DNA of 41,027 nucleotides, from positions 1 to 41,027 of the IMG/VR virus record IMGVR_UViG_3300025138_005898. One strand, 5' to 3'. A program made the translations under genes and the position numbers. How positions within the stretch are numbered: position 1 is the stretch's first letter; each line of letters opens with the position of its first letter. This document shows, in pieces, positions 5,082 to 28,367 of this stretch. Under the pieces are notes generated by a model. It saw nothing but the letters and a program-made list of their open reading frames with translations, did no database searches and was not told where the DNA came from. This DNA comes from a virus.

Positions 5082-6388
5082 TAGCTAATTCTCCAGTTAA
5101 TTGTTCCCTGTGATTTGCTTAGTTCGGTAAGACCCCAAACTAGAGCATCTAATCTATCAGGACTGGGTTTCAACTGACCCACATAAGTACACATTTGTGT
5201 CTCTAATTCAGGGAAAGCACCCATATGATGAACCTTTTTTTGTTCGTAAAGTGCTGCTATAGGTTCTGCTCTAAGCATTTTCCCACGAGTAGCTCTTACT
5301 GACCTATAAGGAATATTGTTATCAACGCTCCTCAAAAGTCTTTCAACCAAGTCTCCACCATTATTAGTTTCTGCAACAATTCTGTCTGCTTCCCAATCAT
5401 AAAATGTCTTCACTGCTAGTCTACCCCATTCGTCTGGTGAATACTTGCCTGAGACATCTTCTAATACATAATACTCATTATTCATGTCTTTGCCTACTAC
5501 CACGATACCTGTTTCATCAGAATTCTCTCCTGCAGTTACAGCAGGGTCTATTGCAACAATGATCGTTTTAAAATCTTTTTTGGTATCTCTGTTTATTCTA
5601 GTGTCTTCAATTTGTTTGTGTGTCCACAATGCACCCTCTATATCGTCAAGTATTTCTGCGTATAGTTCTTGTCTTCCTAATGCTGTGCCTTCATATCTTT
5701 CACGCATCATTTCCAAGGCTGATTCTGCTAAGTTATCTGAGTTCTCAAAAGTATTACCTTTGGTAACATGGACATCTTCTCTGACAATTAAACTTTTTAG
5801 TATTGGTATTGGCTTTGGTGTAGTTGTAATAATGCACTTAGGGTCTTCTCCAAGCCTTAAACCAAACATTAATTGGTCAAAAGCTTCAGGGTATCTCCAA
5901 GAAGCTAACTCATCACACCATGCTCTATGAAACTGTGGTCCCCTTAATCGTTCCGGATTGATTGCTGCATATCCAACTATCTTAGAGCCATTAAATAGTC
6001 TTATTTCCATGACACTTGCAGAATAACCATCTGTGCCAAAAGAAGTATCTAGGCATTCTTTAGGTATGATAGACATCAAGCCTGACGGTCCATTGAAACA
6101 AACCCTTCTAAGGTCTCCAAATGTAGGAGCAACAACTGCTGATATAGTGTTTTCGTTTTTTAGTGCATACAATGCAATGTCCTGTGCACCAGTTCTTGTC
6201 TTGCCCCAACCCCTACCTGCAAGTATCAACCATATAAAATGATCTTCCTCAGGCGGTAGTTGCTTCTCTCTAGCTGTAGAAAGCCAATTAGTGTATAGAG
6301 CCCAAGTCGCCAGTTCGCTTGGCTCTTCCAATCTGATCCAAGAGTTCCATAGCTTCGTTGAATGCTGTTGTGTCTTTAATTTCTGCAT
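5081..6388 (-). CDS. terL: Terminase large subunit
   Basis: ATP-driven DNA-packaging motor and headful or cos nuclease. Walker A AGRGWGKT (57-64), Walker B RAWCDE (155-160), coupling motif TTTPKP (188-193); RNase H-like nuclease with Asp281 (VAIDPAV), Glu340 (IVAETNNGG) and Asp414 (DRLDALVWG). 435 residues is standard. The start overlaps the small subunit by 101 bases and has no clear ribosome site, suggesting coupled translation; a later start would cut the packaging domain, so the long form is kept. Confidence 0.96.
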   Translation of the reverse strand: MQKLKTQQHSTKLWNSWIRLEEPSELATWALYTNWLSTAREKQLPPEEDHFIWLILAGRGWGKTRTGAQDIALYALKNENTISAVVAPTFGDLRRVCFNGPSGLMSIIPKECLDTSFGTDGYSASVMEIRLFNGSKIVGYAAINPERLRGPQFHRAWCDELASWRYPEAFDQLMFGLRLGEDPKCIITTTPKPIPILKSLIVREDVHVTKGNTFENSDNLAESALEMMRERYEGTALGRQELYAEILDDIEGALWTHKQIEDTRINRDTKKDFKTIIVAIDPAVTAGENSDETGIVVVGKDMNNEYYVLEDVSGKYSPDEWGRLAVKTFYDWEADRIVAETNNGGDLVERLLRSVDNNIPYRSVRATRGKMLRAEPIAALYEQKKVHHMGAFPELETQMCTYVGQLKPSPDRLDALVWGLTELSKSQGTINWRIS

Positions 6389-6857
6389 TTAGTTTCATGT
6401 TTTCAGTGGATTCACCCAAGGCTAATTTACCTAGCTTTTGAGCTTGTAGTGCAGCGTTACCTAACTGCTGAACCATTTGTGGTGTAAACTTTTCTTGGTC
6501 ATTTGGGTTTGCTGTCCTTCTTTGATTATTTTCGTTTAATAACATTCCTACTTCATTCATTAATATTTTAGCTATCTTTAAACCAGTGCTATCAAAACTT
6601 TTAGATTCTTCTACAAGTTGTTCTTGTCGTTGTTGGTCTAATTTTTGTAGGTACTCTTGGTGGAATCTTTCTTGTTGAGACTTCCATGATTCTTTTTGTG
6701 CCCATTTGTAGAGAGTACTTTTTGCAATTCCATATTCTATAGCCAAAGCATCAATGGAGAAATATTTTCTATCTCCTTCTGTATCTAAGCCTTGTACATA
6801 CTTGTTGCGTATTTTTTCTGCAAGTTCAATAGTTAATTTGTTATTATCTGTACTCAA
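6288..6857 (-). CDS. terS: Terminase small subunit-like protein
   Basis: 189 residues with an N-terminal helix-turn-helix (about 22-50: SIDALAIEYGIAKSTLYKWAQ), a coiled-coil stretch rich in Gln/Glu (55-85), and a helical C-terminus. This is the layout of DNA-recognition subunits of terminase, and the gene directly precedes and overlaps terL. The start is TTG at 6857, picked because AGGAT lies five bases upstream and no in-frame ATG precedes the helix-turn-helix. The overlap with terL is unusually long. Confidence 0.85.
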   Translation of the reverse strand: MSTDNNKLTIELAEKIRNKYVQGLDTEGDRKYFSIDALAIEYGIAKSTLYKWAQKESWKSQQERFHQEYLQKLDQQRQEQLVEESKSFDSTGLKIAKILMNEVGMLLNENNQRRTANPNDQEKFTPQMVQQLGNAALQAQKLGKLALGESTENMKLNAEIKDTTAFNEAMELLDQIGRAKRTGDLGSIH

Positions 6858-6949
6858 TTTTTATCCTAAAATTCTCATTTATTATCATTCCAAAATTGTA
6901 GTCTAGTTGATAGGGTACGATATGTCTATATCTAATTGCACAAATTGGG

Positions 6950-6977
6950 TTGCAATGTTTTTATAATAGATTACAAT
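6950..6977 (+). promoter_or_regulatory. Sigma70-like promoter P2 of the repeated phage type
   Basis: TTGCAA (6950-6955), 16-bp spacer, TACAAT (6972-6977), followed by AAC, upstream of the gene at 7010. It is part of a 150-base divergent region (6858-7009) between terS and the small plus-strand genes. A second TATAAT at 6962-6967 has no -35 partner at usual spacing. Confidence 0.7.
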
Positions 6978-7009
6978 AACAACTGTTAATAAATTGAATA
7001 GGAGATACT

Positions 7010-7222
7010 ATGAATAATTATGATGATGCTAGGTTAACAGCCTTGCGTTTACTGAAAGGAATGTTTAAAAATTATGTAAATGAGTTTGATGTTTTTGAGG
7101 ATAAGGATTTTGCATATGAGTGTGCTGTTAAGAGAATACAGTTACTTGCTTGTTGGGATGAGTTTAAAGATGAGGTCTTACAATGGTATGACTTTGAAAT
7201 ATTGGGGTTGAGATATGGATAA
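7010..7222 (+). CDS. Small acidic protein of unknown function
   Basis: 70 residues, rich in Asp, Glu, Tyr and Phe; predicted helical (ARLTALRLLKGMF, AYECAVKRIQLL). ATG at 7010 follows AGGAGATACT. First gene after promoter P2; its end overlaps the next gene by eight bases. Not recognised. Confidence 0.7.
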   Translation: MNNYDDARLTALRLLKGMFKNYVNEFDVFEDKDFAYECAVKRIQLLACWDEFKDEVLQWYDFEILGLRYG

Positions 7223-7676: not shown

Positions 7677-8522
7677 ATGAACGGACTTAATAACGAAAGA
7701 ACCTACGGAGTAGAAGTAGAATTCATTTCAACTGAGTGGGGTCAAAGAGAACTTGCTGATAAGATCAATTCTAGATCGTCAGATATACCAATGCCTAGAC
7801 TATATATTGCTTCTTACAGCGATACTGATTCTAGTAAGTGGAGACTTAAAACTGATTCATCAGTTTCATCTAGGAACGGTAGAGGACTAGAACTTGTAAG
7901 TCCAATACTAAGAGGTGATAACGATATGCTGATTCTTAAAAACTTCATGACTATGCTTAATGAGTTGCATTGTGATGTTAATAGAACTTGTGGACTTCAT
8001 GTTCATGTTGGTGCTAGAGATTGGGGTGTTAAAGAATTCAAGAACCTTGCTAAGAGATATGCAAAATTTGAATCTGCAATAGATACTATTATGCCTAACT
8101 CTAGAAGACTAAGTAACAACAGCTACTGTCGTTCAAATGCAAATTACAGAGACTCTAGTTTAGAGTTTGTCTTTGCAGAAATTAATAAATGTAAAACTGC
8201 AAGGGATGTATTACAGAAAGTTCAAGGTGGTAGATACTACAAACTAAATCTTGAAAGTTTTTGGAAACATGGAACTGTAGAATTCAGACATCACAGTGGT
8301 ACAATTTGTCCTGCTAAAATTGAGAACTGGGTCATGGTTTGTATGGGTATGACAAAACTTGCTGACACAAACAGATCAGTAAAAATTACACAGGGTGATA
8401 CTACAAGCACCTACAAAACTAAACTTTCATCACTTATGAATGGATTGGTTAAGACTGGTTTGGTAAGTTCTGCAACTAGAAGATTTTACACTAAAAGAGC
8501 GAGGGCATTATGCACAAGTTAA
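7677..8522 (+). CDS. Putative amidoligase (COOH-NH2 ligase, glutamine-synthetase fold)
   Basis: Enzyme of the Amidoligase_2 type, which uses ATP to form amide bonds on peptides or small amino compounds. Visible motifs: YGVEVEF (10-16, two metal-binding Glu), K-x-D at 58-60, GLELVSP (70-76), CGLHVHVG (105-112) and, towards the C-terminus, GTVEFRHHSGT. All lie in the expected order and 281 residues is a full domain. The next genes are a small protein and a gamma-glutamylcyclotransferase-fold protein; such pairs are known from phage and bacterial amidoligase neighbourhoods. The substrate, whether cell wall, peptide or protein, is not given by the sequence. Confidence 0.88.
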   Translation: MNGLNNERTYGVEVEFISTEWGQRELADKINSRSSDIPMPRLYIASYSDTDSSKWRLKTDSSVSSRNGRGLELVSPILRGDNDMLILKNFMTMLNELHCDVNRTCGLHVHVGARDWGVKEFKNLAKRYAKFESAIDTIMPNSRRLSNNSYCRSNANYRDSSLEFVFAEINKCKTARDVLQKVQGGRYYKLNLESFWKHGTVEFRHHSGTICPAKIENWVMVCMGMTKLADTNRSVKITQGDTTSTYKTKLSSLMNGLVKTGLVSSATRRFYTKRARALCTS

Positions 8523-8746
8523 AATACACCATGAAGGGTGGTGCAATATTTGTAGGTTTTGACAAGTACGACATTGTACAAGCCATTTCAGAATCAAGTT
8601 TTGCACCTTGCGATACTACAGAAATATGGATGCAAGAATGTGCTAACCGTATCAAAGTTCAATTTGGTTACAAGTTAGATTATTACAATGCAGATACTTT
8701 CATTGACGAGTTACTTAAATTTGATTTATTACAGGAGATAAAATAA
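8510..8746 (+). CDS. Small protein between amidoligase and cyclotransferase
   Basis: 78 residues, overlapping the amidoligase end by 13 bases and sharing one base with the next start (TAATG). Contains GGAIFVGFDKYDIVQAI and CANRIKVQFGYK. No membrane segment or known motif. Its tight coupling between the two enzymes makes it a candidate partner or substrate protein, which is inference only. Confidence 0.65.
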   Translation: MHKLKYTMKGGAIFVGFDKYDIVQAISESSFAPCDTTEIWMQECANRIKVQFGYKLDYYNADTFIDELLKFDLLQEIK

Positions 8747-9228
8747 TGTTTTACTTTGCTTACGGTGCTAACCTAAATGTAGACAACATGAGTATGCGAT
8801 GCCCTAATGCTCAACCAATAGTTCCATTTACTTTGCCGGACTATGATTTGGTATTTAGAGGTGTAGCTGATATTGAACAAAAAGCAGGTTCGCAAGTGCG
8901 AGGTGCTTTATGGGATATAACAGATAAGTGCGAAGCCTCTTTAGATATATTTGAGGGTTACCCAACTCTATATAGAAAAGAGTGGTTTCAGATTAAATTG
9001 ACAGATGCACTTGCTAGAGATTTTGGTGAGACTGCTGATGTTTTAGTTTATCGCATGAACCGTACTGGTTATGCTAAACCAAGTCCTATGTATTACGAAA
9101 CAATAAGACAGGGTTATAGAGACTTTAATTTAGACCCAGTTGATTTGGTCAAGGCTAAGAACATATGGAGCAATGGTACAGATGCATATGATAATCCCCT
9201 TATGTGGAGATCAAAGCAATGGGGTTAA
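8746..9228 (+). CDS. Gamma-glutamylcyclotransferase-like (GGCT/AIG2 fold) protein
   Basis: 160 residues. The substrate loop YGANL (6-10) replaces the common YGSNL, the catalytic Glu70 sits in IFEGYP, and the family's LWDI and MYYETIRQGY elements follow. These enzymes release or cyclise gamma-glutamyl amine linkages as 5-oxoproline, the chemical reverse of amide ligation. Placement next to the amidoligase suggests a make-and-break or trimming pair acting on one linkage. Last gene of the P3 unit. Confidence 0.88.
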   Translation: MFYFAYGANLNVDNMSMRCPNAQPIVPFTLPDYDLVFRGVADIEQKAGSQVRGALWDITDKCEASLDIFEGYPTLYRKEWFQIKLTDALARDFGETADVLVYRMNRTGYAKPSPMYYETIRQGYRDFNLDPVDLVKAKNIWSNGTDAYDNPLMWRSKQWG

Positions 9229-9237
9229 AAGCCTATT

Positions 9238-9300
9238 ACTTCGTTGGGGGTCTACTATTGGTAGACCTTCAAGAAGTTCACCATGACCTTGTCAGGACGC
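9238..9300 (+). ncRNA. Repeated structured intergenic element, plus-strand copy at convergent gap
   Basis: Plus-strand order: CTTCGTT, hairpin GGTCTAC-TATTG-GTAGACC (9249-9267), TTCAAGAAGTTC, hairpin TGAC-CTT-GTCA (9284-9294), AGGACG. CGTT (9242-9245) can pair with GACG (9296-9299). It matches the copy at 11036 in TTCAAGA and GTCAG spacing. It occupies the 76-base gap between the cyclotransferase and the ParB-like gene on the other strand, where it could also help end transcription. Confidence 0.6.
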
Positions 9301-9304
9301 AAAT

Positions 9305-9832
9305 TTAATCAAAATCCCTTTCTTTTATATCCGGAACCCAACCTTTACTGTATTCCTCACCACTACCCTTTTCAGTCATTGGTGCAAAGTCATATAAACG
9401 ATCTATTTCTTCTTGTTCCATTCCTAGCATTTCTTGAATTTTATCATCGCTGTATTTGTGTTCATCACGCATCTTTCTAATAATGCTTGTCATTGATAAG
9501 ATCATATGATTTCCTCTTGCTCTGTTATGAACTATGGTTGCTACCATTTGTTGAGCTTCATCAACTTCTGCACTTAGGAATACTACCGGAACAAAACCAC
9601 CAGTTAATGCAAAGATTTTTTCATCAGCAGAAACTGTCCATCTATGAAATCCGTCTACTATTTCACCACTAGCACGAGCAACTATTGGCTGTGTCCACCC
9701 ACAAAGCATAATGCTTGTCTTTAAGAGTTCTAACTCAACTGGTGCAACCTTGTTGGGGTTGTAATCATTTGCCTTCAAGGTGTCTCTATCAACCCACTTC
9801 ATATTGTTAATTGGTTGTTTATTCTTTGCCAT
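9305..9832 (-). CDS. ParB/sulfiredoxin-fold protein, IbrB-like
   Basis: 175 residues from ATG at 9832, which has GAGG upstream and overlaps the previous gene by 14 bases. ParB-type nucleotide-binding core: DYNPNKVAPVELELLKTSI, a strand turn GWTQPIVA, and the signature GEIVDGFHRWTVS, then a helical region with HNRARGNH. This subfamily is typically the partner of PAPS-reductase-like proteins (the IbrA/IbrB pair), and here they overlap in one operon. Not a chromosome-partition ParB: no obvious helix-turn-helix for parS. Confidence 0.82.
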   Translation of the reverse strand: MAKNKQPINNMKWVDRDTLKANDYNPNKVAPVELELLKTSIMLCGWTQPIVARASGEIVDGFHRWTVSADEKIFALTGGFVPVVFLSAEVDEAQQMVATIVHNRARGNHMILSMTSIIRKMRDEHKYSDDKIQEMLGMEQEEIDRLYDFAPMTEKGSGEEYSKGWVPDIKERDFD

Positions 9833-11033
9833 GTCTTTCTGCCTCGTATTTCTTTTTTTGTGATGCTTGTTGTTTAGGATCAGTTGTAAACAATGGTTGT
9901 TTACGACCTTTGTAATCTCCACGCATAGCTATACGCAGTAAATATTCCCAACCAACCCCTGTAACATAGTGATGAGTTTTTAAAATAGGCTCAGAAGTTT
10001 TGACATAGTGGGCCCTAATTTGTTCTTGGATTCGTTTTGCAACTTCAGATTTATATGGTTGAGGGTGTTTACTGATGTAATACTTAACAAATTCAAGCCA
10101 TTCCATGTCAGCAGGTTTTTCTGGAAGACCACCAAACCCATAAAGTTCTGTATTTGCATATCTTGCTGCTGTTGCTGCACCTGCAACTCTTGATTGCATC
10201 TTATCCCAAATGTCCGGAAAGGCTATGGAGTACTGCCATAATCCACGCATAGGTTCTTCTCCATATGGGGGAGCACACCGTTGTTGCAAATGTGTAAGTC
10301 CAAGTTTTTCTAGAATGTCATATGTAATGTTGTAATCCCAACCAAATCTTTGTGGAAGTGTCCAAACATCCACAGTTTTCATATCGTATATAGGACAAAC
10401 TTTAAATACATTGCCTAATGCAGTTTTTGATTTCAGACTAATTATGTAATCTTCATACCGTTTCCCATCACCAGTTTGTAATATTGTTCTGTATCTTGTT
10501 AATGATTCTTCAGACCTTATTCCCATGATCACTCCGACTTCTCCCCAGTCTTGAGGTGGGAAAAGTAAACCATTGCATTCCGGAACTGTTGGTCTTTTAG
10601 AAATTTCTTTGGGAAAGAATGGCAAGTCTTTTTCTTGTATTACACAATCATAATCAGGCATTGGTCTGACCCATTTTTCTTCATCTTCAGGTGCCCATGT
10701 ATACCAATATGGTTCACTTCTAGAGCAACCGTTTCTGTGCTTAACTGGTACACATAACCAATTCATATTTACTTCAGGCAGATCAGCAACCCTTTTTACA
10801 TAGTCAATAGTTTCATAGGGTATAGCTTCTTCATCAAAAAAATAAACATCAAGAGGTAGCTTGTTTCTTTCTTTGGCAATTTGGAGTGTTAGATTGAGAC
10901 AGACGGTTGAATCTTTCCCACCACTAAACATAACAACTACATTATCAAAAATATCATAGGTTCGTCTTATTCGTTCTAGTGCTAATTCATAGACATCTTT
11001 GTCTATTTCTTTTTTTTTATGCACTTTTGACAA
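9819..11033 (-). CDS. PAPS reductase-like PP-loop protein, IbrA-like
   Basis: 404 residues. The pyrophosphatase loop is FSGGKDSTVCL (36-46), followed by the FFDEE strand, MGIRSEES and a long C-terminal helical region (DUF3440-like) with HPQPYKSE and HHYVTGVGWEYLLRIAMRGDYKG. Members activate a carboxyl, sulfate or base with ATP; IbrA-type proteins lack a proven substrate. Cys near 257 (QQRCAPPYGEEPMRGLW) is conserved in the group as I recall. Start is TTG at 11033, backed by AGAGGA seven bases upstream; that ribosome site lies in the 3' arm of the repeat element at 11036. Followed by the IbrB-like gene. Confidence 0.87.
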   Translation of the reverse strand: MSKVHKKKEIDKDVYELALERIRRTYDIFDNVVVMFSGGKDSTVCLNLTLQIAKERNKLPLDVYFFDEEAIPYETIDYVKRVADLPEVNMNWLCVPVKHRNGCSRSEPYWYTWAPEDEEKWVRPMPDYDCVIQEKDLPFFPKEISKRPTVPECNGLLFPPQDWGEVGVIMGIRSEESLTRYRTILQTGDGKRYEDYIISLKSKTALGNVFKVCPIYDMKTVDVWTLPQRFGWDYNITYDILEKLGLTHLQQRCAPPYGEEPMRGLWQYSIAFPDIWDKMQSRVAGAATAARYANTELYGFGGLPEKPADMEWLEFVKYYISKHPQPYKSEVAKRIQEQIRAHYVKTSEPILKTHHYVTGVGWEYLLRIAMRGDYKGRKQPLFTTDPKQQASQKKKYEAERHGKE

Positions 11034-20651: not shown

Positions 20652-20881
20652 CAGGATAGTTTTTCCTTTTTTTCAGACGAGTATTTAATGTTGAGTCCAC
20701 TAAGTGTGCAAAGCCGTGACTTTTCATCAACGCCTTTATCTGTGAGTTGAAAATTATTATCATTTTTTTCTACAAAACCTTCTTTAACAACATTTACTAA
20801 AAGTTCTTCAGGCGTATCTTCATTGAACATTACAGATAGCAATAATCCTAGTCTGTTGTTTTGGGTTTTTGATAAAGCCAT
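20651..20881 (-). CDS. Small protein downstream of lysozyme
   Basis: 76 residues. ATG at 20881 overlaps the lysozyme stop (TAATG), which decides the start. SKTQNNRLGLLLSVMF, TPEELLVNVVKEGFVEKND and FQLTDKGVDEKSRL read like a small winged-helix fold. Unknown role; the last gene of the late operon. Confidence 0.65.
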   Translation of the reverse strand: MALSKTQNNRLGLLLSVMFNEDTPEELLVNVVKEGFVEKNDNNFQLTDKGVDEKSRLCTLSGLNIKYSSEKKEKLS

Positions 20882-21327
20882 TAAATATGTTCCCACCTCT
20901 CACCATTAAACAAAGCAACTTCTGCTGCTCTCCTTCTGCTTAAACCAACCAACACTTTACCACCTGCTTTGTTCCACCGAAGGAACTGTTCAGGAACTAG
21001 GCTGTAGTCTCCTGAGTTAAGCACCTTTAACAGTGTAGATGTTCCTAGTGCATTGGGACCTAAATTGTAAGTAAAGCTACACAGAGCATCAAACTGACAC
21101 TGGTTTAGAGGAACTTTCACACAAGCATTGACGGCATTTTCATATTCGTTTTCAAATTCATGCCACAACATATGTTCTGCTTTCTCTTTTGACCACATAT
21201 CGCCTTCTTGTACACCCTTAGTGTAACCGTAGCCAATAGTCCAAACTCCTGCAGCACATTGATAGGCTTCTAACTCACAGCCTTCAAATGCTCTGACTAA
21301 ATCTATTCCTTCTTGTGATATACGCAT
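20881..21327 (-). CDS. Endolysin, GH24 lysozyme (T4/P21 type)
   Basis: Cuts the glycan chains of peptidoglycan to free progeny. 148 residues from ATG at 21327 behind GGGGAGAATAAT; a longer frame from 21468 would overlap the nuclease gene. Catalytic triad pattern Glu15-x8-Cys24-x5-Thr30 (AFEGCELEAY, CAAGVWTIGYG), with Cys in place of the usual Asp, as in some relatives. No signal or SAR helix at the N-terminus, so release must depend on a holin. Part of the lysis block with the small membrane protein and spanins. Confidence 0.93.
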   Translation of the reverse strand: MRISQEGIDLVRAFEGCELEAYQCAAGVWTIGYGYTKGVQEGDMWSKEKAEHMLWHEFENEYENAVNACVKVPLNQCQFDALCSFTYNLGPNALGTSTLLKVLNSGDYSLVPEQFLRWNKAGGKVLVGLSRRRAAEVALFNGERWEHI

Positions 21328-21328
21328 A

Positions 21329-21724
21329 TTATTCTCCCCAAGTTCCGTCATCTCTGACTTTTGCTTTTTTAGTTCCACCCCAGTATTTAACTGCGTGACC
21401 TTCATTGACAAGAATTTGGCAAACATCTTGACCATCTTCTGTAAAAGGGATTGCAAGTATTCTGCCATATTTTCCTTTGCCTAATGATTGAATTAAAAAT
21501 GAGCCTACGCATAGTTCTGATAATCTTGCTGATGCTTTCTTACCTAATGCTTTTTCTTCTAAGTTGCGAGTTCTTGACTCAGGAGTATCTATACCTGCTA
21601 ACCTGCAGCGTTGTTTATGAAGAAAGACACTAAATCCTAAGTCAAGAGTAACATCAATAGTATCACCATCAACGACTCTTTCTAGTATTGCTTTGTAAAC
21701 AAATGGTGTAACTGTATTTGACAT
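21329..21724 (-). CDS. Staphylococcal nuclease-type (SNase) nuclease
   Basis: 131 residues. VVDGDTIDVTLDLGF with Asp21, LHKQRCRLAGIDTPES with Arg41 and Asp46, a Glu-rich turn near 57 and YGRILAIPF with Arg88 form the SNase active site. No clear signal peptide, so it probably acts in the cytoplasm, degrading host DNA or RNA late in infection. It ends two bases before the lysozyme start. Confidence 0.9.
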   Translation of the reverse strand: MSNTVTPFVYKAILERVVDGDTIDVTLDLGFSVFLHKQRCRLAGIDTPESRTRNLEEKALGKKASARLSELCVGSFLIQSLGKGKYGRILAIPFTEDGQDVCQILVNEGHAVKYWGGTKKAKVRDDGTWGE

Positions 21725-22084: not shown

Positions 22085-22471
22085 TTAATTTTCTTTTGAT
22101 TTTTCGGTAGTTACTTTTCGGTAGTAAACTACCACATCTTTCAACTCTGTAATGTATCTTTTGATCTCTTGCATATTGTATGCCATGACTTCATAGTCAG
22201 GAATCGTCATAGCAAGGAACACTAACTCACCTTCTTGTTGTTCTATTCTTGCTAATTGTTCATCCCAGTTATCAGGCGTAACAGCTATCCACTGCAATTC
22301 TTTTAGATCAATTTCTCTAGGCATGATAGGTTGAACTATCTTGCGCTCAATAGGCTTGGCAGTTACTTGTATTTGCTTAGTTGGAATTAGGCTGCAACTG
22401 CAAACCATCATCAAGGCTATCAACGGTGTCGCTGAGTTTCTCAATATCTTCCATGATATGTTTTGTACCAT
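22085..22471 (-). CDS. Rz1-like outer-membrane spanin lipoprotein
   Basis: 128 residues. The N-terminus has a signal peptide ending in a lipobox-like VCSC (TPLIALMMVCSC), so the mature protein should be lipid-anchored in the outer membrane. The rest (ELQWIAVTPDNW, EGELVFLAMTIPDYEVMAYN, YITELKDVVVYYRK) is longer than a classical Rz1 of about 40 residues. It overlaps the Rz-like gene by 95 bases in another frame, the hallmark of spanin pairs. Confidence 0.8.
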   Translation of the reverse strand: MVQNISWKILRNSATPLIALMMVCSCSLIPTKQIQVTAKPIERKIVQPIMPREIDLKELQWIAVTPDNWDEQLARIEQQEGELVFLAMTIPDYEVMAYNMQEIKRYITELKDVVVYYRKVTTEKSKEN

Positions 22472-22775
22472 TGTTTATTTTCCTCTGCATTTCTATGGGG
22501 TCACTTAAAATTTTAGCAGTTAATTCATAGTTCTGTATGAACTGAGTATATCTGTTTAACTCTCTTTGAGCAGCTTGGCTCTTTACTGAAAGGTCCTGCA
22601 ACTGTTGTGTTTGCATCTCAAAGTCTTTTTGGATTGTCTTAATTGCTTCCTCTTGGGTGGCAACTGCACCCTCTAAAACTGAATTATTTGTTTGCAGTAT
22701 TTGATTTTGGCTATATAGATAATATGTACTTATACCAAGCATGATTATAATTCCTATGAATATCTGTTGCATCAC
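22377..22775 (-). CDS. Rz-like inner-membrane spanin
   Basis: 132 residues: N-terminal transmembrane helix (3-21, IFIGIIIMLGISTYYLY) and a long coiled-coil periplasmic stretch (25-120) rich in Gln, Glu and Lys. This is the i-spanin layout; together with the overlapping lipoprotein it spans the periplasm and fuses the membranes in the last lysis step. Overlaps the upstream small gene by four bases. Confidence 0.82.
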   Translation of the reverse strand: MMQQIFIGIIIMLGISTYYLYSQNQILQTNNSVLEGAVATQEEAIKTIQKDFEMQTQQLQDLSVKSQAAQRELNRYTQFIQNYELTAKILSDPIEMQRKINNGTKHIMEDIEKLSDTVDSLDDGLQLQPNSN

Positions 22776-22990
22776 ATATCCTCTATTATGTAATTAAGAC
22801 CACCTGCACTTCTGTACTCTATTGTCTTGTTATTTAGATCACGAAACTTTAAATGGTTTTCTTTTTGCACAATGATCTTTTTGCTTATGTAAACCTTATC
22901 GTCTGCATCTCCATACTCTTTGTTAAAGGATACTCTTATTTGATAACGATAAATAAAAAGGCTTATTAACCAATCAAAAATTTTTCTCAT
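22772..22990 (-). CDS. Small protein between cyclase and spanins
   Basis: 72 residues. Amphipathic hydrophobic N-terminus (IFDWLISLFIYRYQIRVSF), then polar beta-like region (YISKKIIVQKENHLKFRD, IEYRSAGGLNYIIEDM). It overlaps the cyclase end by 17 bases and the Rz-like start by four, so it is translated with both. Not recognised. Confidence 0.65.
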   Translation of the reverse strand: MRKIFDWLISLFIYRYQIRVSFNKEYGDADDKVYISKKIIVQKENHLKFRDLNNKTIEYRSAGGLNYIIEDM

Positions 22991-24761
22991 AACTACTATC
23001 CCATGTGAATATATTTAAGGCTTTTGCTTTACCTTTGACTATTATAGGTTCTAAGAGTTTTAAATGAAATCCACAATAGGTTTCAGTTTGCTCACCTATT
23101 AACAAGTCTACTCCTCTATCTTTTGTAGCACTTTCTAGTCTAGCTGCAGTGTTTACTGCATCTCCTATAGCTGTGTAGTCAAACCTTGATTCACTACCCA
23201 TGTTGCCTATGATTGCTTCGCCTGAATTGATGCCTATGCCTATAGCAATAGATGGCAAACCCTCATGCTTCAGCTCAACATTTACCTGCTTAATGTTTTT
23301 AATAATATCCAAAGCACACTCTACTGCTACCTTGCTGTGATTATGTAAATCTAAAGGTGCGTTAAATATTGCCATCATTGCATCACCTATATACTTGTCT
23401 ACCATTCCACCATGTTTCTGAACTGCTATCTGTTGAGCTGTTAAAACCTTATTCATTATGTATGTAACTTGTTCAGGCGATACAGATTCAGACAGGGATG
23501 TGAAACCTCTTAGGTCAGTAAACAAGAATGTACAAGTGCGTTTCTCTCCACCCAACTTTAATAGATCAGGATTTTTTTGTAACTCCTTAACCTGTCTTGG
23601 GTCTAAGTAATGCTCAAACTGTTTTTTAATCTGCTGTCTGAGTTTGTATTGTTCTCTAAATCTAATATAAAAAGCTGTTGCTGTAGTTATAAATCCGGAT
23701 AACAAAGACCAACTAACATCTATCAACATACCTTGTTGTATTAACCAGTAACCACCAAAAAAAGTGCTTAAAAGCATTAAACTCGTTAATACTAAACCCC
23801 ATGTAACCCCCAAATATACTAATAGAAGCCATGTCAGAGCATTTAAAATTAGAAAAATTGACCATTCAGCAGTCAAATTCCAATTTGGTATGTATGGGCT
23901 TCCCTCTAGCAATATTGATTCAGACAAGGATGCTTGTATCTTATGAGGTTCTAATAAGCCTACAGGAGTTGCAATTTGTGGCATGACACCACGAGCAGTA
24001 ACGCCTACAAAAACAAACTTACCTGCAACATCCATTTCTTGAAGCGTGGTTTGTGGTGTGTCCACCCAACTAATCCACTGCCTACCATATTTATCTAACT
24101 TGGTTGGTGGTATACCTCTTACAGATATTTCTTCTATTCCTAAAGCAGAGCCTTTTATTATGTAAGTTTTTTGTAGTGCTAATGTTTTAAGAACCTCTGT
24201 ACCAAAAGATGCAACCCAACCATTAGGAGTTTGCATAAGCAAAGGTATTTGTCTAACTAAATTATCTACTTCAGTTGGTGCAGAAGCTATGCCCTGAGAT
24301 GCAATAACTCTAAGCATAGGTATGTTTTGAGTTACACCACTAGCTTTTATGCCAGTAATATTATCACCTAACATGACTGTTCCTGTGGTCGGTGGATATT
24401 CTCCGTTGTCGCTCTCAAACATTGCTAAAACTGAGGGTGCATATCTAAGGCTTACAGCAAAAGAACTATCTCCACCAAACCTATCTTTGTCAGCAAAAGC
24501 AATTACCCAACCTACCCCAGTTGCACCCTTTTCAATTAATTCTTTTTGTATTTCAGCTAGTCTTGATCTAGGAAATGGGTAGCCACCTTCTGCTCTAACA
24601 TCTTTATCTGTGATATTAAGGACTGTGAAAAATCCTGTAGGTTCTTTTTTTGGAACAAGGTAATCAAATGTTTTAAGTTTTAAAGTTTGTAATGGTGAAG
24701 CAGAATAATACATTGGCAATCCAAGTAGGATTATAAGTATAGGAAATATTAACTTCTTCAT
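22974..24761 (-). CDS. CHASE2-domain class III adenylate cyclase
   Basis: 595 residues. One helix (4-20), a periplasmic CHASE2 sensor (about 25-290, with ITDKDVRAEGGYPFPRS and FVGVTARGVM), three transmembrane helices (301-320, 322-342, 350-367), a coiled stretch, and a cyclase domain (405-585). The cyclase is complete: metal Asp416 (LFTDLRGFT) and Asp460 (YIGDAMMAIF), adenine-selecting Lys456 and Asp534 (YTAIGDAVN), transition-state Asn537 and Arg541. It should make cAMP in response to an envelope signal. TAATG overlap with the FecR-domain gene; such cyclases and FecR-domain proteins are often neighbours in bacterial chromosomes. Rare in a phage. Confidence 0.95.
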   Translation of the reverse strand: MKKLIFPILIILLGLPMYYSASPLQTLKLKTFDYLVPKKEPTGFFTVLNITDKDVRAEGGYPFPRSRLAEIQKELIEKGATGVGWVIAFADKDRFGGDSSFAVSLRYAPSVLAMFESDNGEYPPTTGTVMLGDNITGIKASGVTQNIPMLRVIASQGIASAPTEVDNLVRQIPLLMQTPNGWVASFGTEVLKTLALQKTYIIKGSALGIEEISVRGIPPTKLDKYGRQWISWVDTPQTTLQEMDVAGKFVFVGVTARGVMPQIATPVGLLEPHKIQASLSESILLEGSPYIPNWNLTAEWSIFLILNALTWLLLVYLGVTWGLVLTSLMLLSTFFGGYWLIQQGMLIDVSWSLLSGFITTATAFYIRFREQYKLRQQIKKQFEHYLDPRQVKELQKNPDLLKLGGEKRTCTFLFTDLRGFTSLSESVSPEQVTYIMNKVLTAQQIAVQKHGGMVDKYIGDAMMAIFNAPLDLHNHSKVAVECALDIIKNIKQVNVELKHEGLPSIAIGIGINSGEAIIGNMGSESRFDYTAIGDAVNTAARLESATKDRGVDLLIGEQTETYCGFHLKLLEPIIVKGKAKALNIFTWDSSYEKNF

Positions 24762-25876
24762 TAATCACTTTGAGTTATAGTAATGTTACTACTGCTACCA
24801 CCGTTTATTAAAACAGTTTTACTAATACCATTTTGTATTATTATTACAGTATAGCTTCCACTTCCATCTAAATCCAACCTTGCAGTATCGTTACCTGCAC
24901 GAATAAGCGTGACTATCTGCCCAGTTACAAAGGTCGTAATTCCTGTGTCAGTGTCCTGACCTATTTTTGTTCCTGTAATTTTAATTGAAGTTGCATCTTG
25001 TGAAACAGCATCTTTTTCTTCACCTACTGCTAATGAATCTAAAATGTCTAATAAATCTTCTAGGAAATTGCCGTCAAGATAGTTAATGTCTAACTCTGTG
25101 AATTCTAAATCAGCTTCAGCATCCAAGTATTCATTTGATAAGAAGTCCACATCAAGACCATTAAAATCTAGAATATTTGCAGTTTTAGCCACTTCTTCTT
25201 GTGATTCCAATTCTTGTCTCTTAGGTGGGGTAACAATCAACATATTATCAATAGCATCTAAAGTTAAATCTAATATTACTGGCTTGGATGGTGAGTTCTC
25301 AAAGACTGACACTGTGGTAGCTTCAAAAGGTTTTGTTAAACGAACTGTGCCTGTCGCTGTGGCTACCTCTATCTCACCACTAGATAATCCCATAGAATCA
25401 GGCAAAAGAATGATTAGAGAGCGCCCTAGCTCGTCTACTGTTGCTGTAAAATCAGTACCAAGGATTGCAATATTGGCTGTAGGAGTCTTTAGCGTAATGT
25501 TTTTCTTATCTATCTTGCTTAATTTGCCTGTGATAAACCTAGCTGTGCCTACACCAAAGGTCAAAGCCATTTTAGATTTGCTTGGGTCAGCATTGTAGAT
25601 GTACTCATCAATAATGAGAGTTGAATGCTCGGTTAGTCTGACAGTAGAATCGTCAAGAAATGTAATAGCCATCCTTCCATTAGAAGTCACAGCTTCATCA
25701 TTGCTTTGTATGGCAAACTCTAGGTCTGCATCATAAGGCTTGTCTCTCACTATTTGTGCTGAACCATTCAGTTCAGATATATCACCTATATTAACAGCTT
25801 GTGCTTGAACCTTGGTCGTTTTGAGTGACACACACAGTACCACTAGAGCCAACAGAAGTAACTTTAAGCCAGTCAT
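24761..25876 (-). CDS. FecR-domain periplasmic protein
   Basis: 371 residues from ATG at 25876, where a signal peptide begins (MTGLKLLLLALVVLCVSLKT, cut near AQA); alternative starts to 25969 would add a second hydrophobic segment. FecR domain about 30-165 of the mature region: GDISELNGSAQIVRD, VTSNGRMAITFLDDSTVRL, TPTANIAILGTDF. The C-terminal half is acidic with Asp/Leu repeats and a beta-rich end (GSGSYTVIIIQNG). It overlaps the curlin-like gene by 86 bases and is coupled to the cyclase, so it may pass an envelope state to it. Confidence 0.85.
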   Translation of the reverse strand: MTGLKLLLLALVVLCVSLKTTKVQAQAVNIGDISELNGSAQIVRDKPYDADLEFAIQSNDEAVTSNGRMAITFLDDSTVRLTEHSTLIIDEYIYNADPSKSKMALTFGVGTARFITGKLSKIDKKNITLKTPTANIAILGTDFTATVDELGRSLIILLPDSMGLSSGEIEVATATGTVRLTKPFEATTVSVFENSPSKPVILDLTLDAIDNMLIVTPPKRQELESQEEVAKTANILDFNGLDVDFLSNEYLDAEADLEFTELDINYLDGNFLEDLLDILDSLAVGEEKDAVSQDATSIKITGTKIGQDTDTGITTFVTGQIVTLIRAGNDTARLDLDGSGSYTVIIIQNGISKTVLINGGSSSNITITQSD

Positions 25877-26498
25877 TGTCTTGTGTGCTGTGTTGTTGGA
25901 TATTAAAAGTCCTGCTACCCCCAGTATGGTCAAGATAAAAATAACCACCTGCATATCCATCTCCGTCAAAAGTAACAGTATTATCTGAGCCGTCTATGTC
26001 CATGAAGTTAGTTCCACCGTCATAGTCAATGGCTGAAGTAATAGTATTATTACTACCCTGAATAGTCCAATCTAGGTCTAATGTAGCAGCTAAAGCTGCA
26101 ACAGCATGATTTAATGTAAATGTATTACCTGCACCTGTAACCTGTACATTGACATTAGAGTTATCTGCACCATAGGTATTTGTTGGGTCAGTCTGCATAT
26201 TAAATACATTGTTTGAACCAGTGAATTCAAAAAAGCCAGTATATGAGTCTGCATATATGTCTCCTAAAAATTTATTAGTGTTGCCTATCTGATTAATGTC
26301 TAAGGTCATAGATGCACCGTCAAGGTCTAATGGTGTCATGCTTCCTGCAGTTGCAGAAGTGCCACCTATAATATTGCCTGAACCTAATTGCTCAAAATCT
26401 ATGTTTGCTGTAGCACCTGACTGGTCTACATAAATCTCATTATCTGCAGCATTTGCTATCATAGGAATAATGAGAACAATATAAAAATATTTATTCAT
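25791..26498 (-). CDS. Curlin-like (CsgA/CsgB-like) secreted protein
   Basis: 235 residues from ATG at 26498; signal peptide MNKYFYIVLIIPMIANA ends before ADNEIY. The mature part is Asn/Gly/Asp-rich with curlin-type strands: VDQSGATANIDFEQLGSGN, LDINQIGNTNKFLG, VNVQVTGAGNTFTLN, WTIQGSNNTITS, and FNIQQHSTQDN. The spacing (Q-x-G-x-x-N) resembles amyloid repeats but is looser than in CsgA. Two Cys near the C-terminus (VCVTQNDQGSSTSC) could form a disulfide. It is the natural cargo of the CsgG/CsgF pair next door. Start overlaps the csgG end by four bases. Confidence 0.8.
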   Translation of the reverse strand: MNKYFYIVLIIPMIANAADNEIYVDQSGATANIDFEQLGSGNIIGGTSATAGSMTPLDLDGASMTLDINQIGNTNKFLGDIYADSYTGFFEFTGSNNVFNMQTDPTNTYGADNSNVNVQVTGAGNTFTLNHAVAALAATLDLDWTIQGSNNTITSAIDYDGGTNFMDIDGSDNTVTFDGDGYAGGYFYLDHTGGSRTFNIQQHSTQDNDWLKVTSVGSSGTVCVTQNDQGSSTSC

Positions 26499-27292
26499 TT
26501 CCAAAACCCTCTCTCATAACCAATGTTAATGAGTTCCAATACTGCACTCTCAATCGCCTTGCTTAAAGCGATAGTGGTTGACTCATTGTAGGTCACACCG
26601 AATTCTAATTCAACTAGCTCTGTTCCTAGCTCTATAAACTTAAATACATCATCACTATTAGAGTAGCTAAATATAGTTTTTTGCGACAATACTTCTACTA
26701 ATACTTCGCCTGTTGCTGTTGATACCATTCGCAAGGAAACGCTTATTACATCTTCTCTATAAGCTACGCTTTTGCCAATTCCTAGATACCTTGCACCCCC
26801 ACCACCAGTTCTAATATTAGCATCATATGCAATTACTGCGCCTTCTAATATAAGACCTGCAAATAGTAGTGGTTGTATATCATCTTGATTAAATTCTTTT
26901 CTAGCAGACCGTATAAGTTGCCTTTCTTTAGTTAGATTATCTAAACCAACCCTTTCTACCACTCTAAAAAACTCACCATTACCTGCGTGTTTTAAGGCTC
27001 TTAGTAATAAGGAATTAGGTGCTTGTGTTATTGCCGTTGAAAATAAAGCAAACTCACTGTTGCTTTTTCGTTGTCCTGTTTGATCTGTAAAGCTGTTAGG
27101 GTAGACGGCAATAATAGGTCTGCGTTTAGGTACAGACACATTCTTCAACTCATCAGATTGAATGTCTAAGATACTTGCTAGTTTTGCTTCTTTATCTAAT
27201 AGCTGTCTGTTTAGTTGTGAATCAACTTGTACAAATGCACAGCTAGAAAGTAAAAGAACCGATAGGCAAAGTGATTTCTGTAGTATTTCCAT
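26495..27292 (-). CDS. csgG: CsgG-family curli secretion channel lipoprotein
   Basis: 265 residues. Lipoprotein signal with lipobox LLLSSC; the mature protein has the CsgG core: RRPIIAVYPNSFTDQTGQRK, NSLLLRALKHAGNGEFFRVVERVG, NLTKERQLIRSAR, LILEGAVIAYDANIRTGGGG, ARYLGIGKS and GEVLVEVLSQKTIFSYSN. In curli systems nine subunits form the outer-membrane pore that exports curlin. Length and motif order match the bacterial protein, so it looks functional. Overlaps csgF by about 50 bases. Confidence 0.95.
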   Translation of the reverse strand: MEILQKSLCLSVLLLSSCAFVQVDSQLNRQLLDKEAKLASILDIQSDELKNVSVPKRRPIIAVYPNSFTDQTGQRKSNSEFALFSTAITQAPNSLLLRALKHAGNGEFFRVVERVGLDNLTKERQLIRSARKEFNQDDIQPLLFAGLILEGAVIAYDANIRTGGGGARYLGIGKSVAYREDVISVSLRMVSTATGEVLVEVLSQKTIFSYSNSDDVFKFIELGTELVELEFGVTYNESTTIALSKAIESAVLELINIGYERGFWK

Positions 27293-27716
27293 CTGCATCT
27301 GTAACTATAAGTGTTATATATTCTCCGTCAGATTCATAGGTAATAGTATTACCCTCTAATTCAATAGTACCTTCTGTACTTGTAGTTTCTCCAAACAAAT
27401 TTTCTACTAGCTGCCTAGATAACTGTGCGTATATACGACTTTCTAAATTTCTTATAAACCTTGCAAGAGTTGTGTTGTCTGCTTCTCTTGCTAATTCTTC
27501 TTGGTAGGCTTTGATCTCATCTTTGATTGCTTTTTTTCTATTGAACTCTTGATTCTCTGCCGTAAAATAATGAGAGCTTGTATTGTTTCCACTAAAGCTA
27601 GGACTCTTAAACTTGTGAGTCATTTGATCTGCTTTTATGCTTAAAGAAAACAATAGAGTCAAGAAAAAACCTAATAAGCCAAAAGTAATTAATTGATTGT
27701 TACTTAGTTTCTTCAT
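27243..27716 (-). CDS. csgF: CsgF-like curli assembly factor
   Basis: 157 residues. Signal peptide to about residue 29 (SLSIKA), then the CsgF N-terminal plug motif DQMTHKFKSPSFSGNN, which in E. coli CsgF inserts into the CsgG pore; a helical neck (KAYQEELAREADNTTLARFI) and a beta-rich C-terminus (GTIELEGNTITYESDGEY, LIVTDADGNTTEI). CsgF links the pore to curlin nucleation at the surface. CsgE and CsgC were not found. Starts directly after a 28-residue membrane protein (ATGA overlap). Confidence 0.88.
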   Translation of the reverse strand: MKKLSNNQLITFGLLGFFLTLLFSLSIKADQMTHKFKSPSFSGNNTSSHYFTAENQEFNRKKAIKDEIKAYQEELAREADNTTLARFIRNLESRIYAQLSRQLVENLFGETTSTEGTIELEGNTITYESDGEYITLIVTDADGNTTEITLPIGSFTF

Positions 27717-27799
27717 AGCGGATGAGTATCATCAAACCATGACATAATTATTCCTGTTGCAAATAATATTACAAATAGGTTAATTAAAAAATCAATCAT
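27713..27799 (-). CDS. 28-residue membrane microprotein
   Basis: Frame from ATG at 27799 (inside the previous gene end) to TGA at 27713, overlapping the csgF start by four bases. The product MIDFLINLFVILFATGIIMS then WFDDTHPL is a single membrane helix with an acidic tail. Overlaps at both ends make it likely real, but it is too short for homology. Possible holin-like or assembly factor. Confidence 0.5.
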   Translation of the reverse strand: MIDFLINLFVILFATGIIMSWFDDTHPL

Positions 27800-28037
27800 T
27801 TTTTTCCTCTACATCTTTTAATTTTAAAACTGTATTAACTTTCTGCTGTAATCGTATCATATCTTGATCTAGCAACCTTAATTGGTCAGTAAGTCTAATA
27901 ATAGTCTTTTGCATTTCTGCTACTGCAGGTTCAACAGTTTTAGTAATTGTAATCCATACATAATAAACAAAATATCCAAGACCAACTACCATGATTGTAG
28001 TGAAACCAAATTTTTCTATTAATAAAACTATATCCAT
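27792..28037 (-). CDS. Membrane-anchored coiled-coil protein (paralog A)
   Basis: 81 residues: transmembrane helix 10-32 (FTTIMVVGLGYFVYYVWITI) and a coiled coil (38-72). Its N-terminus and helix match the next upstream gene in pattern (LIEKFGF / LIEEVGLP, GYFVYYV / GYFIFLI), so the two look duplicated. Between tail and curli genes; a holin-related or envelope role is possible. Confidence 0.7.
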   Translation of the reverse strand: MDIVLLIEKFGFTTIMVVGLGYFVYYVWITITKTVEPAVAEMQKTIIRLTDQLRLLDQDMIRLQQKVNTVLKLKDVEEKND

Positions 28038-28330
28038 TAATCACGCCTAGCATCTATCTTGCCGTCTTCTACGAAGTTCTCTGCTCTTGCTATTCTGTCT
28101 AAATCAGGTGCAAGATTTAAAGCACTGGACACGCTTGTATCAATTCTAATCATGTCGTTGTTCATTATAGATGCTCTAGTAATAAGCATCTTTGCAATTC
28201 CTTCTACTGTTTTGATTTTATTGACTAAGCCAGTCATCATTTGTTGCATGATCAGAAAAATAAAGTAACCCATAACCAAACCACTTGCGATGGGCAATCC
28301 AACTTCTTCTATTAATGTAAAGGCATCCAT
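28037..28330 (-). CDS. Membrane-anchored helical protein (paralog B)
   Basis: 97 residues from ATG at 28330 (a GTG at 28336 is possible). Transmembrane helix about 11-33 (VGLPIASGLVMGYFIFLIM) and a helical charged tail. Overlaps paralog A by one base. The pair recurs next to tail genes in marine phages as far as I remember; role unknown. Confidence 0.65.
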   Translation of the reverse strand: MDAFTLIEEVGLPIASGLVMGYFIFLIMQQMMTGLVNKIKTVEGIAKMLITRASIMNNDMIRIDTSVSSALNLAPDLDRIARAENFVEDGKIDARRD

Positions 28331-28367
28331 AAACACAGTTTATCACCAAAAAAAACATCTATATTAC

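Follow-up and report, generated by a model that had tools for sequence, protein, structure and literature searches.

What a phage might gain from a curli-type secretion module that runs into its lysis genes is the question raised by the IMG/VR virus record IMGVR_UViG_3300025138_005898, the complete 41,027 bases of which were analysed and are called the window here. Its minus strand holds a chain of overlapping open reading frames (ORFs): csgF, csgG and the genes for a curlin-like protein, a FecR-domain protein and a CHASE2 adenylate cyclase. The chain is preceded by tail-fibre and small membrane-protein genes, and the cyclase gene continues without a gap into an ORF of 72 amino acids (aa), followed by genes for Rz-like and Rz1-like spanins and, later, a nuclease and a lysozyme. 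We give about an even chance to the view that the chain represents an entire curli-type (type VIII) secretion cassette, placed at an exchange site between tail-fibre and spanin genes of a marine siphovirus-like phage, which exports a curli-like surface polymer late in infection and has an envelope-sensing cyclic AMP (cAMP) output.

A curli-type gene chain joined to lysis genes

The genes concerned are the following, in the order of the minus strand (values are E-values).

28037..28336, minus strand: small membrane protein, phrog_18771, first paralogue (phrog_18771, 3.6e-23)
27792..28037, minus strand: small membrane protein, phrog_18771, second paralogue (phrog_18771, 6.3e-23)
27243..27716, minus strand: CsgF (Pfam PF10614, 3.3e-19 over 135 residues)
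26495..27298, minus strand: CsgG, predicted outer-membrane secretion pore lipoprotein (Pfam PF03783, 7.1e-49)
25791..26498, minus strand: curlin-like secreted protein, CsgA/B type (family profile, repeats, AlphaFold model)
24761..25876, minus strand: secreted FecR-domain protein with a curlin-like C-terminal strand (Pfam PF04773, 5.5e-9)
22974..24761, minus strand: CHASE2-domain class III adenylate cyclase (Pfam CHASE2, 1.5e-24; Guanylate_cyc, 1.7e-21)
22772..22990, minus strand: 72-aa conserved protein between module and spanins (overlaps cyclase and spanin ORFs)
22377..22775, minus strand: Rz-like inner-membrane spanin (phrog_739, 1.4e-10)
22085..22471, minus strand: Rz1-like outer-membrane spanin (phrog_812, 1e-11)
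21329..21724, minus strand: staphylococcal-nuclease-type endonuclease (Pfam SNase, 6.3e-12; phrog_452, 1.5e-36)
20881..21468, minus strand: phage lysozyme, endolysin (Pfam Phage_lysozyme, 2.4e-46)

In a preliminary description of this DNA, made from the letters alone, the five module genes had been named and assigned to a late operon with tail genes on one side and spanins and lysozyme on the other. Pfam and family profiles bore out the five identities, all on the minus strand about where they had been placed, and the assigned position was found to be correct. Pfam matches for CsgF, CsgG, FecR, CHASE2 and the cyclase ranged from 5e-9 to 7e-49. It had also been remarked that CsgE, CsgC and CsgD are absent, which holds for the gene chain, and that the signature residues are intact, which was confirmed down to the catalytic residues of the cyclase.

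The same description had left room for an assembly error joining host DNA to phage DNA. Since homologous bacterial operons exist, such a chimera was considered; it was rejected and is given next to no probability, as independent contigs (L006, L008, L009, L011 and L239) cross the junctions, both of which are spanned. Two of these from other samples (L011, L008) are continuous from the tail genes into csgF-csgG, and a third, also from another sample (L006), is continuous from h28560 across the module to the spanins and lysozyme. CsgG is 87-92% identical in L006, L008, L009 and L011. Furthermore, the cultured phages HTVC008M and Melnitz carry the module, and the base composition of the window is uniform.

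The preliminary description had suggested a search for the five-gene order. Of the contigs compared, 80 have the complete set, and the order is identical in every one. Ratios of nonsynonymous to synonymous substitution (dN/dS) of 0.05-0.20 across the five genes point to purifying selection. A recognisable spanin or lysozyme gene lies within 2.8 kb downstream of the cyclase gene in at least 24 of the 41 contigs with enough sequence; this is a minimum, since all probes were proteins of the window.

As to the carrier, profile scans revealed a siphovirus-like gene content of the window (head protease, portal, terminase, neck proteins, major tail protein, tape measure, distal tail protein and central fibre J). 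Matches of the distal tail protein in the phage collection were confined to Roseobacter phages, e.g. CRP-6. A curli-bearing contig of 58.7 kb (L050) is related to HTVC023P-type phages and to DSL-LC04 by its virion structural protein. By such matches, the tail genes of the window belong to a lineage other than the published carriers of the curli module. Tail typing with Pfam PF12236 and PF04984 gave no tail-type information on these contigs, and in a promoter and terminator scan sites were no more numerous than in shuffled sequences. The module is probably expressed together with the late genes.

Published phage modules and bacterial relatives

In the preliminary description the complete set was taken to be unknown from a phage operon, which was wrong. 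The presence of csgF and csgG was described for pelagimyophages (PMC7029224, 2020) and for the OM43 methylophage Melnitz (PMC9004378, 2022), and the arrangement CsgF-CsgG-CsgA/B-FecR-(CsgA/B)-adenylate cyclase was reported for myovirus and HTVC023P-type podovirus pelagiphages, between which transfer of the module was argued (PMC9599517, 2022). According to the latter study, curli systems carried by phages are common throughout the ocean and the module genes are expressed in ocean metatranscriptomes; csgF, csgG and curlin are always found in phage curli regions, FecR and the cyclase not always. This gene order, which the window follows, was also read in the records of HTVC008M and Melnitz, both of which carry the full set.

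The pelagiphage module, as in HTVC008M gp014-gp019, resembles that of the window in having its five genes in one chain and small proteins upstream of csgF, and csgC, csgD and csgE are not reported. HTVC008M differs by a second curlin with a PA14 domain between FecR and the cyclase, and its CsgG is only 47% identical to that of the window. Melnitz has the same gene order, with two curlins, and a small upstream protein of 43% identity, but is a myovirus in which the module does not lie beside lysis genes; of its module csgGF alone was described, and a lysis pore was proposed (PMC9004378). Whereas the published pelagiphage carriers are myoviruses and HTVC023P-type podoviruses, the carrier in the window is siphovirus-like and its chain overlaps spanin genes. 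No report of a curli module in a siphovirus was found in the literature searched. Thus the module itself is already published, and what the sequence adds is a siphovirus-like carrier and a module fused to the lysis cassette. Compared with csgBAC/csgDEFG of E. coli, the chain shares the CsgG pore, the CsgF family and, as a candidate, a curlin-type cargo, but is without CsgC, CsgD and CsgE, has one curlin, and adds the FecR protein and the CHASE2 cyclase.

It was stated that FecR and cyclase do not occur in bacterial curli operons (PMC9599517). This is too strong, because the order CsgF-CsgG-curlin(s)-FecR-CHASE2 cyclase is shared by three alphaproteobacterial contigs, from Hyphomonas TMED17 and two Caulobacteraceae metagenome-assembled genomes (L084-L086); the flanks look bacterial in L084 and L085, the two that were read. 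The bacterial cyclases are longer (688-691 aa vs 595 aa in the window), and no phrog_18771-like ORF was noticed upstream of csgF. A full-length FecR search of about 1,180 genomes (same order, class and phylum) returned only the known bacterial carriers and the phage-like contig L087, all remaining hits being of partial coverage and mostly to the FecR domain; bacterial operons of this kind thus seem to be rare. Contig L087, binned as Planctomycetaceae TMED10, was rejected as a bacterial carrier, as lysozyme-like and phrog_18771-like genes are present, and is probably a misbinned pelagimyophage carrying the curli module. A quick CsgG tree groups the phages with these bacteria in a single clade (SH-aLRT 99), the inner branching of which leaves the direction of transfer unsettled. 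The bacterial operons of identical order provide cellular counterparts for work on the FecR-cyclase arm of curli control.

Three further observations were made on phage and bacterial records. HTVC008M gp018 (L002:10638-11963), annotated as hypothetical, is the second curlin with the PA14 domain (Pfam 5e-8 and 3e-6). A gene resembling cyclic-nucleotide phosphodiesterases (CpdA/SpdA family, below curated cut-offs) adjoins one bacterial csgF operon at L085:4116-4976. The phage record OR851715.1, a 'Salmonella phage' of 1,499 bp, encodes CsgG, and its size suggests bacterial contamination.

The proteins of the module and a possible envelope signal

CsgG oligomers export curlins across the outer membrane, and the pore is capped by CsgF. 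The CsgG family profile matched E. coli CsgG in the PDB at 2e-64, and the lipobox cysteine (Cys20) is invariant in the family, so that Pfam, PDB profile and lipobox agree on the pore of a type VIII (curli) secretion system. For CsgF the corresponding match was weak (0.037) and did not reach beyond the N-terminal part of the E. coli protein; the F.xP.F.G segment of the CsgG-binding N-terminus is conserved. The curlin-like protein gave no match to the Pfam curlin families. It holds QxGxxN and GxxN repeats, the QxGxxN count being reached in 11 of 2000 shuffles, and in the three bacterial contigs its family profile matched the curlins next to csgG (1e-22 to 2e-26). Its AlphaFold model is beta-rich (pLDDT 81, pTM 0.78), and many of the weak matches in a fold search with this model were beta-helix proteins. 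We therefore use the term curlin-like, which is warranted by repeats, profile and model and allows for the lack of a Pfam curlin or significant fold match.

The FecR gene most likely starts not at the TTG at 25969, where the listed ORF begins, but at the ATG at 25876, which is followed by a signal peptide: in most relatives the longer frame contains stop codons and a common start then precedes the signal peptide, so the TTG was rejected. All 57 distinct FecR proteins terminate in a strand of the pattern hxhxQ (average in shuffles 1.7). The minimal curli motif QxGxxN (PMC3521004) occurs in the last 45 residues of 39 of the 57 vs 1 elsewhere (average in shuffles 1.6). As the 57 sequences are related, these counts reflect conservation and not 57 independent events. 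In the copy of the window the terminal strand is present, but lysine replaces the asparagine of QxGxxN. The AlphaFold model of the FecR protein is poor (pLDDT 45). Of the iron-responsive FecI/FecR regulators only the FecR domain is matched; a signal peptide precedes it, and scans of window proteins with Pfam and phrog profiles turned up no sigma factor, so that the pairing of an anti-sigma FecR with a cognate ECF sigma factor was not seen. The invariant C-terminal strand, curlin-like at the level of motifs, is new here.

It was proposed that the CsgG pore lets large nutrients or cofactors enter the infected cell (PMC7029224, PMC9599517), and a gene chain without the CsgE gate would suit such a role. 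We regard this as very unlikely, since the conserved curlin, CsgF and the curlin-like tail of FecR would be left unexplained.

CHASE2 is an extracytoplasmic sensor domain. In the cyclase of the window the metal-binding aspartates, the Lys/Thr substrate pair and the transition-state Asn and Arg of class III adenylate cyclases are all intact (D416, K456, D460, T530, N537 and R541), and of these both metal Asp as well as the Lys and the Arg do not vary among the 53 members with letters at these positions. In Sinorhizobium the outer-membrane barrel NsrA signals to CHASE2 cyclases (PMC13001267). The Burkholderia BiofilmReg operon, which acts in biofilm control, likewise has the gene of a secreted FecR-domain protein beside a CHASE2 sensor gene (PMC5192318); its output is a histidine kinase with a response regulator, whereas in the window it is an adenylate cyclase and a LysM domain is missing. 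Moreover, a FecR-CHASE2 cyclase pair was found in one bacterial genome of the same taxonomic order with no curli genes in view, adjoined by a gene weakly similar to the outer-membrane protein EpsL.

The signalling of NsrA and this FecR-CHASE2 pair, together with the intact cyclase residues and the phosphodiesterase-like gene beside csgF in one bacterial operon, would fit cAMP as the main product, with the curli genes forming an envelope or surface sensor that reprograms the host and the fibre being secondary. We consider this unlikely, because FecR and cyclase are the inconstant members of phage curli regions and csgF, csgG and curlin the constant ones (PMC9599517). A second phosphodiesterase-like gene (L218:13697-14770; CpdA/SpdA family, below curated cut-offs) was observed near the FecR-CHASE2 pair.

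The paralogous pair of small, single-transmembrane phrog_18771 proteins (window 27792-28336) also belongs with the module, as judged by its linkage. In 76 of the 80 contigs with room upstream, csgF has one or both of them at a distance of no more than 900 bp, and among 50,697 phage records phrog_18771 matched only HTVC008M and Melnitz phages, beside csgF. For the first protein dN/dS is about 0.01 (three relatives). Within the records searched, a phrog_18771 membrane protein found only beside the curli module is a new observation. The pair may correspond to the one or two short proteins upstream of the module that were labelled histidine kinase (PMC9599517). That the pair are histidine kinases was rejected, since Pfam detects no kinase domain in them; neither was a holin family found in Pfam, nor a holin among the phrog matches.

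A proposed exchange site upstream of the spanin genes and the predicted role of the module

Three sister phages (L231, L236 and L256), with a tail gene of 91-97% identity, have retained their tail genes together with h28560, the 72-aa protein and Rz; between h28560 and the 72-aa protein they have about 4 kb without any csg gene. This alternative cassette occupies the following stretches.

L236:6002-9917, L231:9073-12764 and L256:15557-19234: alternative cassette of the sister phages

It encodes two secreted proteins, one Asn/Thr-rich with 40-42 Asn in its best 100 residues (in L236 at 6002-7129) and one of about 745 aa, as well as a coiled-coil membrane protein of 119 aa; L236 has in addition an ORF of 67 aa that starts like a lipoprotein. 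A CsgG homologue was not found in it. The ~745-aa protein had no match in the phage collection; a scan of viral contigs gave 234 relatives, and csg genes were present in 0 of 80 of their loci examined. The cassette is thus widespread and often stands directly upstream of Rz/Rz1/lysozyme, in siphovirus-like and HTVC023P-like lineages. Both cassettes together occurred in none of 22 records (whole-record searches, which had no positive control of their own, on contigs that may be incomplete). We tentatively suggest that the slot upstream of the spanin and lysozyme genes is an exchange site for late cassettes exporting self-assembling proteins in at least two marine phage lineages. Equally tentatively, the alternatives at this site would be the curli module or a cassette of Asn-rich (prion-like by composition), ~745-aa and coiled-coil membrane proteins. 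If so, phages would quite generally build a polymer on dying cells late in infection and would have come to this by two unrelated routes. Of all these findings, the swapping of secreted-protein cassettes between tail and lysis genes most deserves further attention.

This replacement also bears on the pore for lysis timing that was argued for Melnitz (PMC9004378). In such a scheme CsgG/CsgF would act in a pinholin- or secretin-like manner with curlin and FecR as accessories, in keeping with the overlap between module and spanin genes in the window and with lysis genes following closely after the module in many contigs. However, the phage already encodes spanins and lysozyme, curlin and FecR are conserved as much as the pore (dN/dS), and the replacement cassette lacks a CsgG homologue. 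Furthermore, a CsgG lipoprotein is expected in the outer membrane, whereas pinholins act in the inner membrane. A lysis pore is thus quite unlikely, and an Asn-rich secreted protein without CsgG at the same site favours the benefit of a secreted polymer over both lysis pore and uptake.

For the late export of a polymer the following course is proposed. CsgG would form an outer-membrane pore in the infected cell, capped by CsgF, through which the curlin-like protein would leave and form a curli-like polymer on the cell. By its terminal strand the FecR protein may couple to the fibre or to subunits in the periplasm, as sensor or anchor, and the inner-membrane CHASE2 cyclase could read the state of FecR and fibre and make cAMP in the host. 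The benefit would most likely lie in a polymer that, before lysis, forms a coat or aggregate on the infected cell and on its debris, by which superinfection is excluded or susceptible siblings are kept close; coat, aggregation and superinfection exclusion cannot be told apart from these data.

Several results weigh against this proposal. The fold search with the curlin-like model found no significant solved structure (best E 0.17), and profile comparison of the FecR C-terminus with curlins was not significant (probability 2-6%), the likeness being confined to motifs, even though this segment scored above other FecR segments. The scans of window proteins revealed no recognisable cAMP receptor. 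No visible clumping was seen in Melnitz infections (PMC9004378). CsgE is missing from the gene chain, as it also is from Alphaproteobacteria (PMC3521004). No functional test of phage-borne curli systems was found in the literature searched.

In support of a late secreted polymer stand the fixed gene order, the purifying selection, the intact cyclase residues, the curlin homologues, the bacterial operons of the same order, the spanin overlap, the lysis genes near the cyclase gene and the expression in metatranscriptomes (PMC9599517). Fusion to lysis genes, replacement of the whole module and the linked small membrane protein together favour a late role with a secreted product. The late amyloid-like export with cAMP reporting the state of the envelope that the preliminary description had raised is plausible as far as the genes can tell and was not contradicted.

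Two observations concern other genes. In L231 a DNA-methyltransferase-like ORF with an NPPF motif (L231:13169-13681) lies between the 72-aa protein and Rz. In the window, positions 7677-11033 hold plus-strand genes for an amidoligase and a gamma-glutamyl cyclotransferase, next to a PAPS-reductase/DUF3440 gene on the minus strand.

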